From Thermococcus radiotolerans (GTDB lineage Archaea; Methanobacteriota_B; Thermococci; Thermococcales; Thermococcaceae), in assembly GCF_002214565.1 (NCBI RefSeq), contig NZ_CP015106.1, positions 1,488,001 to 1,552,000 on the forward strand: a stretch of DNA of 64,000 nucleotides, read 5' to 3'. This document shows, one piece after another, positions 8,158-13,423 of this stretch. How positions within the stretch are numbered: the first letter of the stretch is position 1; the number at the start of each line of letters is the position of its first letter. The notes beneath the pieces are model-generated. The model did no database searches and was not told the DNA's origin. It saw only the letters and a list, made by a program, of their open reading frames with translations. The translations under genes were made by a program, and so were the position numbers.

Positions 8158-8203
8158 ATGACCAAAAAACTCAAAATTTACATTCCCGGTATCAAATTCC
8201 CCC
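8158..8203 (+). pseudogene. Truncated 5' copy of the LipS1-like radical SAM gene
   Basis: The first 15 codons here (MTKKLKIYIPGIKFP) match the first 14 of the intact gene at 8372 (MKKLKIYIPGIKFP) except for one extra codon. Beyond that, all four base differences in the shared codons are synonymous (AAA/AAG, ATT/ATC, CCC/CCA, GGT/GGC). Similarity stops abruptly and low-complexity hairpin DNA follows. The open frame runs on to 8361 with a composition unlike a protein. It is best read as the remnant of a tandem duplicate with a good ribosome binding site, not as a gene. Confidence 0.7.
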
Positions 8204-8212
8204 CGCAGGACC

Positions 8213-8344
8213 GGGGGGTTTCACCCCCCACGTCCTTGCTAACCCCCTCCCCCCGAACGTGGGGCTTCGCCCCACATAAATCGGGAAACCACGTTTCCCA
8301 AACCCTTCCTTCTCCTTTAAACACCGGAGGGGGGCAAAGCCCCC
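8213..8344 (+). repeat. Cluster of four short hairpins with 3-base loops
   Basis: Four near-perfect stem-loops follow one another: 8213-8229 (7-bp stem, loop TTC), 8259-8275 (GTGGGGC stem, loop TTC), 8283-8299 (GGGAAAC stem, loop CAC) and 8330-8344 (GGGGGC stem, loop AAA). The patch separates the broken and intact copies of the radical SAM gene. Base composition differs sharply from neighbouring genes, with long C and G runs. No coding potential is evident. Confidence 0.75.
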
Positions 8345-8371
8345 TACAACCCCCTTTCTGAGGTGAGTTAA

Positions 8372-9199
8372 ATGAAAAAGCTCAAAATCTACATTCCAGG
8401 CATCAAATTCCCCTCAATCTCTCTCACCGGTAACTACTGCGCGCTGAACTGCGCCCACTGCGGAAAACACTACCTTGAGAGCATGAGAAAGCCCACCAGA
8501 AAGAATCTGGTTGACTATTGCCTCAGCCTAGAGAGGGAGGGCTACACCGGATGCCTGCTGAGCGGTGGAATGGATTCGAGGCTCAAGGTTCCCATCGACA
8601 GGTACGCGGATGAAATCAGGGAGATAAAGCGAAGAACGAGCCTCAAGCTCAACGCCCACGTGGGGTTCATAGACGAGAACGATCTGGAGTGGGTCAGGTA
8701 CGTCGATGTCGTCTCCCTCGACTTCGTGGGCGATAACGACGTCATAAGGCGCGTTTACAAGATAGACAAAACCGTCGAGGACTACCTGAGAATCCTAGAC
8801 CTGCTCACGGGGGCGGGCGTCAGGGTGGCCCCCCACATAACCATAGGCCTCGACTTCGGCAGAATCGGCTGGGAGTACAGGGCGATAGACCTGCTGATGG
8901 AGTATCCGATAGACGTCCTCGTGCTGGACGTACTCATACCGACGAAGGGGACGGAGATGGAGAACGTTCCAAAGCCGGGCGTTGGGGATAGTCTGAAGGT
9001 CGTGAAATACGCCAGGGAGCGCTTCGACGGGGAGCTGAGCATAGGCTGCATGCGCCCGCTGGGCAGGTGGCGGGTTGACTTCGACAGGGGAGCGATTCTA
9101 GCCGGCGTTGACAGGCTGACGAATCCCCCCAGAAAAGTCATCGAATGGGCAAAGAGTGTGAGGGACGTTGAAATAATCTACGAGTGCTGCGTCATGTAG
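8372..9199 (+). CDS. Radical SAM protein, probable lipoyl synthase component LipS1
   Basis: Radical SAM enzyme of 275 residues. The cluster motif NYCALNCAHC (C-x3-C-x2-C) is at about residues 20-27, and further cysteines occur at GCMRP and at the extreme C-terminus (YECCVM). It looks like a biotin-synthase relative. In T. kodakarensis, TK2109 and TK2248 were shown to act together as a split lipoyl synthase (LipS1 and LipS2). This gene follows enolase (TK2106 from memory) at the matching place, so LipS1 is the best guess. The partner is not in the window. The ATG at 8372 has GAGGTGA upstream. A broken copy of the 5' end lies at 8158. Confidence 0.75.
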   Translation: MKKLKIYIPGIKFPSISLTGNYCALNCAHCGKHYLESMRKPTRKNLVDYCLSLEREGYTGCLLSGGMDSRLKVPIDRYADEIREIKRRTSLKLNAHVGFIDENDLEWVRYVDVVSLDFVGDNDVIRRVYKIDKTVEDYLRILDLLTGAGVRVAPHITIGLDFGRIGWEYRAIDLLMEYPIDVLVLDVLIPTKGTEMENVPKPGVGDSLKVVKYARERFDGELSIGCMRPLGRWRVDFDRGAILAGVDRLTNPPRKVIEWAKSVRDVEIIYECCVM

Positions 9200-10941: not shown

Positions 10942-11859
10942 ATGGGCGAACCCATTATGGACGAGCTCGAATTCCTCGTTGAAATCCTCGAGAAACATCC
11001 CCTCGACAGCCTCAAAAAAATCGCCGAGGAGGAGGGTATAGACTACTACAGGCTTAAGAGGCTGTACGACAAGTACTACGGAAAGTACCTCACCGTGAGT
11101 GCGTTCATCAGCCTCAAGCGCCTTGGACTGCGAACCTACGTCGGATTCCTAACTGTTCCGTCGGACAGGCTCCTCGAAGTGGGCCTTCGAATGAGCCAGA
11201 ATCCATTCGTTGGCTACATGAACCCGGCCTATGGATTCAAAAACGGCCTTTCGGTGATATTCTACACCCCCGACGACCAGAGGGACAGGATAGAGGAGTT
11301 CCTGTCCCAGTACTCGGAAGACTACGAGTACTACGAGGCCAGGGCATACCCGTACGACGGCGACGACAACTTTGGAGACTGGGATCTGAGCTACGATTAC
11401 GCCATTCTGCTCGACATACTCAAGTGGGACTCAAGGATGCCCATAACCGAGATGGCACGGAACCTCGGAAAGAGCAGGCCCACCGTTAGATACATGATAA
11501 ACAGGCTGAAGGAGGAGGGCATACTCCTCGACTTCGCGCCGGTGATAGACATGAACGTCCACGACAGGGCAGTCATAGGACTCACGAAAGAACTGGACGA
11601 GAAGGTTCTGGAGAGATTCAACGAGTACGAAATAATGGTGGGAGTCCTCCCCGGATACGGATACATTCTGGAGTGGTTCTTCTCCTCCAAGGAGGACCTG
11701 GGAAGCAAAGTTCTCGAGTTCAGCGCCCACGTCGAGAAGCTCCTCATAGAGTACTTCGACGAGACCTTCAAGGAGCTCAACGATAGAAACGCCAGGACCA
11801 GATATGCCAGGATGGTTAAAAAGGATGGGAGTGGCTACCGCTCCATGCTTGACTTCTAA
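10942..11859 (+). CDS. Two-domain winged-helix regulator, AsnC-like
   Basis: 305-residue putative transcriptional regulator. The N-terminal 40 residues look like a degenerate helix-turn-helix (SLKKIAEEEGIDYYRLKRLY). A complete AsnC-type winged helix sits in the middle, at about residues 155-195 (LLDILKWDSRMPITEMARNL then SRPTVRYMINRLKEEGI). Ligand-binding-like segments follow each. The double HTH and length are unlike ordinary Lrp proteins of about 150 residues. ATG 10942 follows GGTGAGGTGA. It is divergent from the adenosine kinase gene (70-base gap) and overlaps the converging SPASM gene by four bases. The target is unknown. Confidence 0.75.
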   Translation: MGEPIMDELEFLVEILEKHPLDSLKKIAEEEGIDYYRLKRLYDKYYGKYLTVSAFISLKRLGLRTYVGFLTVPSDRLLEVGLRMSQNPFVGYMNPAYGFKNGLSVIFYTPDDQRDRIEEFLSQYSEDYEYYEARAYPYDGDDNFGDWDLSYDYAILLDILKWDSRMPITEMARNLGKSRPTVRYMINRLKEEGILLDFAPVIDMNVHDRAVIGLTKELDEKVLERFNEYEIMVGVLPGYGYILEWFFSSKEDLGSKVLEFSAHVEKLLIEYFDETFKELNDRNARTRYARMVKKDGSGYRSMLDF

Positions 11860-12788
11860 AAGGCTATCTGACAGTATTCCAGGCCGTCTATCTCCCCACT
11901 CGCCTGGTACTCCAGCGCCCTGCAGTCGTGGCATATGTACTTAAACGGGCAGGTCCTGCAGGCATCGATATCGTCCTTCGTCATCTTCCAGAAGGCCTTG
12001 AGCCTCTTCTTCCTGAGCACCTTTTTGATCCCCAGTTCCTTCATGTCCCCAACGACGTAGTTCCTCAGCAGCGGGCACGGGAGGGCGTAGCCCTCGGCGG
12101 TTATCGCCATGGTGCCCGCGAGGCAGTCGTGGTACTTCTCAACGCTCGGGTTGAGTATCCTCTTGACCTCGATGACGTTGAAGTCCAGTCTCCTCGCCGA
12201 GCCCGGGAAAAGCACGTCAACGTAGATTTCTCCGGGGAAGGTGGTCTTGAGGCCCCTAAGTTCATCCAGGTGTGAGCCCTGCACCATCACCAGCGCCCCG
12301 TGGAGCCAGCTGTGGGCCTCAAGCTGGTGGAGGTTCTCGGGCGAGTACTCGAACTCGGCTATGAAACGAACACCCTCAATGGGTTCGATTGAATCCACGT
12401 CCTCAAGCCTAACGACGGCGTAAACCTCGGGAACACCTATTTCAGCCGCGTACGAGGCAACGCTGGTCAGGTATTCGACCCTGTCGTAGTTTGTGAGCCA
12501 CAGCTCCTTTCCACCGATCTCCCTGAACTCCATTATCAGCTCCTTAACTCGCTCTGGACTCAGCGGCTCGCGGCGGAGCAGGAAGGAGTTGTTTCCTATG
12601 CAGCCTATGGAGCGGGGTATCCCACCCACTTCCGAGAATCTCCCCCTGCCGGCGCCGAGTTGAACGATGAGGCGCTCAAGCTTCCCGTTGTGAGCCCTGT
12701 GACTCCAAGGAGGCTTACCGATGGAAACTATGTTGAGGGCGGTCCCCACATCAACGGCATGAGACGCATCGTAAGCTACCTTCTCCAT
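11856..12788 (-). CDS. SPASM-domain protein lacking the radical SAM cysteine motif
   Basis: 310-residue protein whose C-terminus has a full SPASM-type iron-sulfur pattern: C-x10-G-x4-C (KYHDC to ALPC), then C-x2-C-x5-C-x2-C (ACRTCPFKYICHDC) and a final cysteine near the end (EYCQIAF). The N-terminal half reads like the radical SAM barrel region, but no C-x3-C-x2-C motif exists. At the expected place there is GIPRSIGCIGNNSFLL with a single cysteine. It may bind auxiliary clusters only, or serve as a partner or scaffold. The ATG at 12788 has GGTGAG upstream. The TATA box is GTATATATA at 12822-12834 on this strand, with a large palindrome further upstream. Confidence 0.75.
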   Translation of the reverse strand: MEKVAYDASHAVDVGTALNIVSIGKPPWSHRAHNGKLERLIVQLGAGRGRFSEVGGIPRSIGCIGNNSFLLRREPLSPERVKELIMEFREIGGKELWLTNYDRVEYLTSVASYAAEIGVPEVYAVVRLEDVDSIEPIEGVRFIAEFEYSPENLHQLEAHSWLHGALVMVQGSHLDELRGLKTTFPGEIYVDVLFPGSARRLDFNVIEVKRILNPSVEKYHDCLAGTMAITAEGYALPCPLLRNYVVGDMKELGIKKVLRKKRLKAFWKMTKDDIDACRTCPFKYICHDCRALEYQASGEIDGLEYCQIAF

Positions 12789-12845
12789 TTAGCCCTCACC
12801 ATAGGAAGAAACGCCGGAATCGTATATATACTTTTTCTATTCCGA

Positions 12846-12876
12846 TTTTGCACACTACTGGCAGTAGTCTGCAAAA
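12846..12876 (-). promoter_or_regulatory. 31-bp near-perfect palindrome upstream of the SPASM gene promoter
   Basis: Arms TTTTGCACACTACT and AGTAGTCTGCAAAA flank a GGC centre, with one mismatch in 14 bp. On the minus strand it lies just upstream of the TATA box of the SPASM gene (12822-12834), where an activator might bind. It also lies 20 bases after the moaE stop, so a role as an RNA hairpin at the moaE 3' end is the alternative. Confidence 0.6.
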
Positions 12877-12896: not shown

Positions 12897-13325
12897 TTAT
12901 TTCTCGGGCACCACCCTGTCACCCTCTATCCAAAAGGTCCCTTCGTCGGTAATCTCCCTCTTCCAGACGGGAACACGACGCTTCACCTCGTCTATGGCCC
13001 AACTGCACGCTTCGAATGCCTCCTTCCTGTGCCTCCCGCTGGCGATGATGAGTATCGTGTCCTCGCCGACCTCAAGCTCGCCGTAGCGGTGCCATATCAG
13101 CATGTCTAGGATGGGGAACCTCTCAAGGGCCTCCTTTCGAATCCTTTCCATCTCCGCCTCAGCCATCTCCTCGTATGCCTCGTATACGAGCTTCCTCACC
13201 CGCCTTCCGTGGCTTTCGTTCCTCACCCTTCCCAGGAAGAAGACGTAGCCCCCGGCCTCCGGGACGGCGATGTGTCCCAATGCCTCATTCAGGTCAAAGG
13301 CATCCTTGGTCATCCTAACCTTCAT
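12897..13325 (-). CDS. moaE: Molybdopterin synthase catalytic subunit MoaE
   Basis: MoaE transfers sulfur from the thiocarboxylated MoaD C-terminus to precursor Z to form molybdopterin. About 142 residues. Family motifs are GGYVFFLGRVRNESHGRRV, then LVYEAYEEMA, HRYGELEVGED and ASGRHRKEAFEACSWAIDEVK, with the catalytic lysine in VPVWKRE. The start is not certain: ATG 13325 or 13331 lie beside GGGGATGAGG, and I chose 13325. The MoaD-like and MoeB-like genes are 1-2 kb away on the same strand, separated by a lipoprotein gene in the opposite direction. Confidence 0.93.
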   Translation of the reverse strand: MKVRMTKDAFDLNEALGHIAVPEAGGYVFFLGRVRNESHGRRVRKLVYEAYEEMAEAEMERIRKEALERFPILDMLIWHRYGELEVGEDTILIIASGRHRKEAFEACSWAIDEVKRRVPVWKREITDEGTFWIEGDRVVPEK

Positions 13326-13423
13326 CCTCATCCCCCTAGAGACTAGGCCCAACCAAATTAAAAGCTGCCGGGTTAACGAAAAGGTTTAAGTGACCTCGAT
13401 TCCAGGAACTGTGGGTGGTTGAA

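Follow-up and report, generated by a model that had tools for sequence, protein, structure and literature searches.

Most studies treat the auxiliary clusters of SPASM proteins as accessories to a radical. SuiB and SkfB, radical SAM maturases of RiPPs, are intact radical SAM enzymes. In CteB-type maturases an open auxiliary cluster I (AuxI) site binds the substrate (PMC10452713). The heme synthase AhbD (TIGR04545) has the radical SAM motif and acts on iron-coproporphyrin; its SPASM domain has a two-cluster layout with the published spacing CX2CX5CX2C, as opposed to a CX3C at the end (PMC10452713). SPASM proteins without a radical SAM motif are also known. GwsS of the grasp-with-spasm systems (TIGR04193) is of this kind, and the one GwsS that we compared, from an Elizabethkingia plasmid, carries no CX3CX2C motif and gives no Radical_SAM match. 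By their names, the GeoRSP SPASM protein (TIGR04304) and the TIGR04150 pseudo-radical-SAM protein are further SPASM proteins in which an active radical SAM domain is missing or separate.

The window analysed here is a 64,000-nucleotide stretch of the genome of Thermococcus radiotolerans, a Thermococcaceae genome of one contig and 1.87 Mb. On its sequence, one gene in the window encodes an archaeal variant of this GwsS-type kind, with the following features.

11856-12788, minus strand: pseudo-radical-SAM/SPASM gene, 310 aa, with its stop codon at 11856-11858.
11871-12143, minus strand: SPASM domain, residues 216-306 (PF13186, TIGR04085, TIGR04193), with seven cysteines, all invariant.
12144-12674, minus strand: predicted N-terminal radical SAM-like barrel, residues 39-215 (AlphaFold2 and Foldseek; no Pfam match).
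12600-12602, minus strand: codon of Cys63, the sole N-terminal cysteine, invariant in 70/70 orthologs.
12483-12491, minus strand: codons of N100-Y101-D102, at the expected place of the GGE motif (register from hhalign).

A first-pass annotation had read a complete SPASM cysteine pattern in this protein, and the family models bear it out: PF13186 scores 33.7 bits against a cut-off of 21.5, and TIGR04085, the model that the annotation had proposed to align, scores 36 bits against 27. The cysteines are spaced C222-x10-G-x4-C238 ... C277-x2-C280-x5-C286-x2-C289-x16-C306, which is the seven-cysteine pattern CX9-15GX4C ... CX2CX5CX2-3C ... C with the AhbD spacing. The annotation had also claimed that the C-x3-C-x2-C motif is missing and that a single cysteine, C63 in GIPRSIGCIGNN, is left in the N-terminal region. 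Both statements hold throughout the family. Orthologs are present in 74/74 near-complete Thermococcaceae genomes, and matches to the protein in 93 of 94 overall, a count in which a few fragmentary genomes gave just a piece or a different SPASM protein. C63 and all the SPASM cysteines (C222, C238, C277, C280, C286, C289 and C306) are invariant in the 70 orthologs that were aligned, as are K25-P-P-W28, G45/G47/G49, R59, S60, N66, Y101, D102, D130, E145, D191, P195, S197 and H287-D288. Because all 70 keep C63 and none restores CX3CX2C, we rule out that the motif was obscured by a frameshift, a sequencing error or a wrong start; the last two were among the outcomes that the annotation had named as overturning its reading. 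Even with the threshold set at E 0.1, the Pfam Radical_SAM model (PF04055) matches neither this protein nor a single one of the 32 orthologs searched; as controls, the same search matched the neighbouring LipS1 and plasmid radical SAM/SPASM proteins, one of them slightly below the cut-off.

The class-level search covered 115 genomes, and the phylum-level search spanned the identical 115. In the rest of the class, matches are confined to the SPASM part, and the ten radical SAM/SPASM proteins that were read there all have CX3CX2C. No full-length relative was found outside the Thermococcaceae, the contig scan having used two short peptide patterns that are blind to diverged relatives, and viral contigs held none. 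By the searches done, the protein is a conserved pseudo-radical-SAM protein specific to the Thermococcaceae. The literature searched contained nothing on the locus or on pseudo-radical-SAM SPASM proteins.

With HMMER, no known family matches the N-terminal half significantly, and direct comparison with GwsS or with canonical radical SAM proteins gives no match either. An AlphaFold2 prediction from 32 orthologs, a moderate model from a shallow alignment (mean pLDDT 77.8), has six beta/alpha units over residues 39-194. The predicted fold, a putative partial (beta/alpha)6 barrel, resembles radical SAM enzymes; Foldseek ranks 1 to 6 are, in order, SuiB, DesII, AbmM, SkfB, DesII and viperin, with E 5e-4 to 1e-2, probability 0.91-1.00 (1.00 for SuiB and SkfB) and TM at most 0.46. 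Unlike the intact SuiB and SkfB, the archaeal protein has no cluster motif. A short and weak hhalign alignment to a canonical radical SAM/SPASM profile scores 27.2 over residues 73-99 and places them in the helix 1-strand 2 register; 0/150 column shuffles scored as well, the best reaching 25.8. These results bear on the proposal that the N-terminal half is an unrelated domain fused to SPASM and does not descend from a radical SAM barrel. Such a fusion would explain why no ortholog gives a Radical_SAM sequence match and why the TM is about 0.46, but it sits poorly with six leading structural matches that are all radical SAM enzymes, with the six beta/alpha units and with the shuffle control, and we consider it improbable. 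The radical SAM-like character of the N-terminal half comes from structure prediction only, and the earlier statement that the rest of the barrel seems kept stands for the predicted fold alone.

After strand 2, where the weak alignment would place the SAM-binding GGE, the protein has N-Y-D (Y101 and D102 invariant, N100 in 69/70 orthologs). The cluster motif and the GGE both appear to have been lost, with other polar residues invariant. Together, the family-wide loss of the motif, the invariant SPASM cysteines and the predicted fold make a pseudo-enzyme that retains auxiliary-cluster ligands well supported as a reading of sequence and model. That part of the first-pass interpretation stands, and its suggestions of a docking partner or of a new use for the clusters are both possible readings of the sequence; it had overlooked the apparent replacement of GGE by N-Y-D, and a shared promoter element tied to a regulator gene that is described below.

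AhbD offers a template for the clusters, since comparison with it assigns SPASM cysteines to AuxI and AuxII (PMC10452713). By this analogy C277, C280, C286 and C306 should be the AuxII ligands, whereas C222, C238 and C289 would be those of AuxI, where the fourth cysteine is missing. That fourth position may be open, or it may be filled by Cys63 as a putative ligand. The protein probably carries two clusters, both of them auxiliary, and lacks the SAM-binding one.

The SPASM domain most like its own belongs to GwsS. TIGR04193 is the best NCBIfam match (64.2 bits, cut-off 175, SPASM part only) and is matched by all 32 orthologs. The archaeal protein and the Elizabethkingia GwsS have the same overall layout and the common signature FxxxWxxTKDxIxxCxxCxFxYICxDCRA, with 31% identity over 86 aa; they differ in that the host here is archaeal, the score is 64 of 175 bits and the N-terminal halves cannot be aligned. 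A search at E 0.001 found no GwsG partner (ATP-grasp, TIGR04192) anywhere in the genome. The SPASM gene has no precursor peptide, ATP-grasp or exporter gene next to it, nor do RiPP genes flank it in three further genera. Membership in the grasp-with-spasm family was rejected on the score below the 175-bit cut-off and the missing GwsG; with no RiPP genes and unalignable N-terminal halves as well, the sequence is therefore GwsS-like in kind and not that of a GwsS member. TIGR04304 and TIGR04150 gave weak matches in some orthologs, with scores far below cut-off, and stand for different systems that were compared by model name. The AhbD model matches the SPASM part weakly (22.9 bits).

The surroundings of the gene contain four further features.

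10942-11859, plus strand: convergent tandem HTH-RAM (fused double Lrp) gene, a probable regulator.
12823-12845, minus strand: conserved TCGGAATAG and BRE/TATA box (AAAAAGTATATATA) of the SPASM gene.
12846-12876, no strand: 31-bp palindrome TTTTGCAnACTACTnnnAGTAGTnTGCAAAA upstream of the SPASM gene, a probable operator.
12897-13352, minus strand: MoaE gene, directly upstream, a frequent conserved neighbour (PF02391; synteny).

In the tandem-Lrp protein an Lrp-type HTH is followed by a predicted RAM fold. HTH_24 scores 38.5 bits, the second HTH matches LrpA at E 2e-9, and the predicted structure has two HTH-RAM halves (pLDDT 92.5). The archaeal Lrp activators Ptr2, LysM and Ss-LrpB have the same type of HTH and a site directly upstream of the BRE (PMC2995911), but here two HTH-RAM halves are fused in one chain and the PDB counterpart is an enzyme: the nearest fold is the siroheme decarboxylase NirDL (E 9e-12), followed by Lrp regulators. 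This fold match, together with the matches of the NirJ2 and AhbD models to the SPASM part, could be taken to mean that the two genes are a remnant tetrapyrrole pair, a NirDL-like decarboxylase and a NirJ/AhbD-like relic. Tetrapyrrole synthesis needs HemB, and this genome has no HemB (PF00490), which is present in 11/14 control genomes. TIGR04193 also outscores NirJ2 and AhbD in the window protein, and the neighbour's HTH matches Lrp regulators by sequence while its gene tracks the promoter element. A tetrapyrrole pair is accordingly disfavoured, and we regard it as very improbable.

The first 39 nt of the coding region of LipS1, a neighbour in the window, lie at 8375-8413 and have a second copy of 90% identity 211 bp upstream, at 8164-8202, where it starts a short ORF (8158-8413 region). 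The repeat suggests that a duplication or insertion took place recently at the start of the gene.

The promoter and large upstream palindrome claimed by the first-pass annotation are both real. A palindrome of 31 bp is not expected even once in the shuffled window, and it looks like an operator. It is followed by TCGGAATAGAAAAAGTATATATA, and about nine bases separate its end from the BRE-like stretch. The binding sites of archaeal Lrp activators lie a few bases upstream of the BRE (PMC2995911), and since the palindrome is similarly placed, a tandem-Lrp regulator acting there would more likely be an activator than a repressor.

The promoter element was scored over 49 fixed positions (maximum 49), and the SPASM gene of the window scores 49. 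Scores of 32-49 were obtained for SPASM genes that lie beside the tandem-Lrp gene or, in genus g3, have it elsewhere in the genome; the lowest, 32, was in G001, and the g4 copies adjoining the regulator gave 34-36. The g4 SPASM loci that were fetched without an adjoining regulator scored 21-26, a set that includes one second copy from a genome with the regulator beside its other copy. A shuffled 5-kb sequence gave a best score of 27. Seven g4 genomes have no regulator gene. The promoter element goes with the regulator gene and is absent at the examined loci that lack it.

Some g4 genomes have two SPASM genes, one adjoining the regulator and the other adjoining MoaE. The two g4 kinds (L036-L038, L070 and L089 versus L041, L052, L068, L069, L090, L091, L094 and L095) have diverged and form separate well-supported clades. 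In G077 the MoaE-side copy is broken; in G078 it is the regulator-side copy, and fragments of the regulator remain. This reciprocal decay leaves one intact gene in each genome, which suggests a required function that one copy of either kind can supply.

With a looser operator pattern, 39/41 Thermococcus genomes give one or more matches, and with its mirror-image control none does. Thirty-three sites that do not belong to SPASM genes (L140-L172) were read. All keep the operator-to-TATA spacing, with scores of 34-45; the sites were picked by pattern match, so the scores are not independent evidence, whereas the consistency of the downstream genes is. Fifteen of the 33 precede a lipoprotein gene of about 268 aa (assigned for L158 from the gene's start and its surroundings), 12 precede a large ORF of secreted-protein type (assigned for L147 from its size) and 6 precede other ORFs; at three of these 6 an apparent moeA (judged by eye) is close by. 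Neither Pfam nor NCBIfam gives a match for the co-regulated lipoprotein, and one of the large secreted-type proteins has a CARDB repeat. The window genome has only one further near-match, a weaker one (score 37), at a lipoprotein gene (G000:C1, ~832 kb). By these sequence patterns the SPASM gene, the lipoprotein and the large secreted protein form a probable small regulon, which is recognised here together with the SPASM promoter element. The lipoprotein gene at 13415 in the window was rejected as the co-regulated lipoprotein, having no operator in front and a chance-level match. The large secreted proteins, which like the lipoprotein belong to no known family, are 800-1100 aa long and have the motif NDPYxxFWEILNRExELV. 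The sites L148, L149 and L170 (G023, G028 and G025) are those near a gene that resembles moeA; in G023 and G028 the shared element is followed by short ORFs of 71-73 aa, possible small coding genes.

The conserved MoaE neighbour points elsewhere and counts against the explanation that we prefer below. MoaE and the SPASM gene are adjacent in most genera, including g3, whose other neighbours are lost, and this adjacency and the three regulon sites near an apparent moeA would suit a tungsto/molybdopterin accessory protein that works with MoaE. Against such a partnership, MoaE is not adjacent in g2, in g6 or at the g4 copies beside the regulator, the promoter element belongs to the SPASM gene and is not common to MoaE, and the known partner, MoaD, is already encoded nearby. 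We give this role a low probability.

The best explanation overall, which in our judgement is about equally apt to prove right or wrong, is that of a pseudo-radical-SAM protein under tandem-Lrp control that handles a protein or peptide in a cell-envelope process. The protein would descend from a radical SAM/SPASM enzyme that lost its [4Fe-4S]-SAM site (CX3CX2C and GGE), and should make no 5'-deoxyadenosyl radical. The retained SPASM ligands would hold auxiliary clusters I and II, and R59, S60, C63, N66, Y101, D102, D130, E145 and D191, near strand ends in the model, suggest substrate binding. The tandem-Lrp protein probably binds the palindrome upstream of the BRE/TATA box, probably as an activator, and would control the SPASM gene together with the lipoprotein and the large secreted protein. 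The SPASM protein may then act as a non-radical Fe-S maturase or as a substrate-presenting chaperone for a protein or peptide. This explanation builds on the cysteine pattern, the conservation, the predicted fold, the promoter element and its sharing; cluster binding, the loss of radical chemistry, operator binding by the regulator and its sign, and the role itself are what it would add to them. Since the relatives are peptide maturases and the co-regulated proteins are secreted, our leading guess is a role in the cell envelope or in the handling of secreted proteins. Co-regulation alone is no proof of partnership, and the secreted proteins are candidate partners.

The same polar residues, and an AuxI site with three cysteines (cf. 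PMC10452713), would also suit a non-radical metabolic enzyme in which the open AuxI iron, Cys63 and the polar side chains transform a small anionic metabolite. Neither a protein nor a peptide would be its partner, and that metabolite would be what the regulator senses; RAM domains of Lrp proteins do bind small molecules (PMC2995911), and the SPASM gene has no RiPP cassette around it. Yet the nearest SPASM domains belong to peptide maturases, and an enzyme of this sort would not predict a promoter element common to secreted proteins. We think it possible but doubtful.

Returning to a pseudo-radical-SAM protein that handles a protein or peptide, its boldest form is a family-wide archaeal system in which such a protein, with auxiliary-type clusters only, no SAM radical and under tandem-Lrp control, modifies or chaperones the co-regulated secreted proteins. 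We rate this form as unlikely, but if true, it would define a non-radical function of a SPASM protein outside peptide cassettes. A conserved family that has given up the radical site but keeps the auxiliary ligands offers a natural way to learn what these clusters do alone. The co-regulated genes are direct partner candidates, and Thermococcus kodakarensis is genetically tractable.
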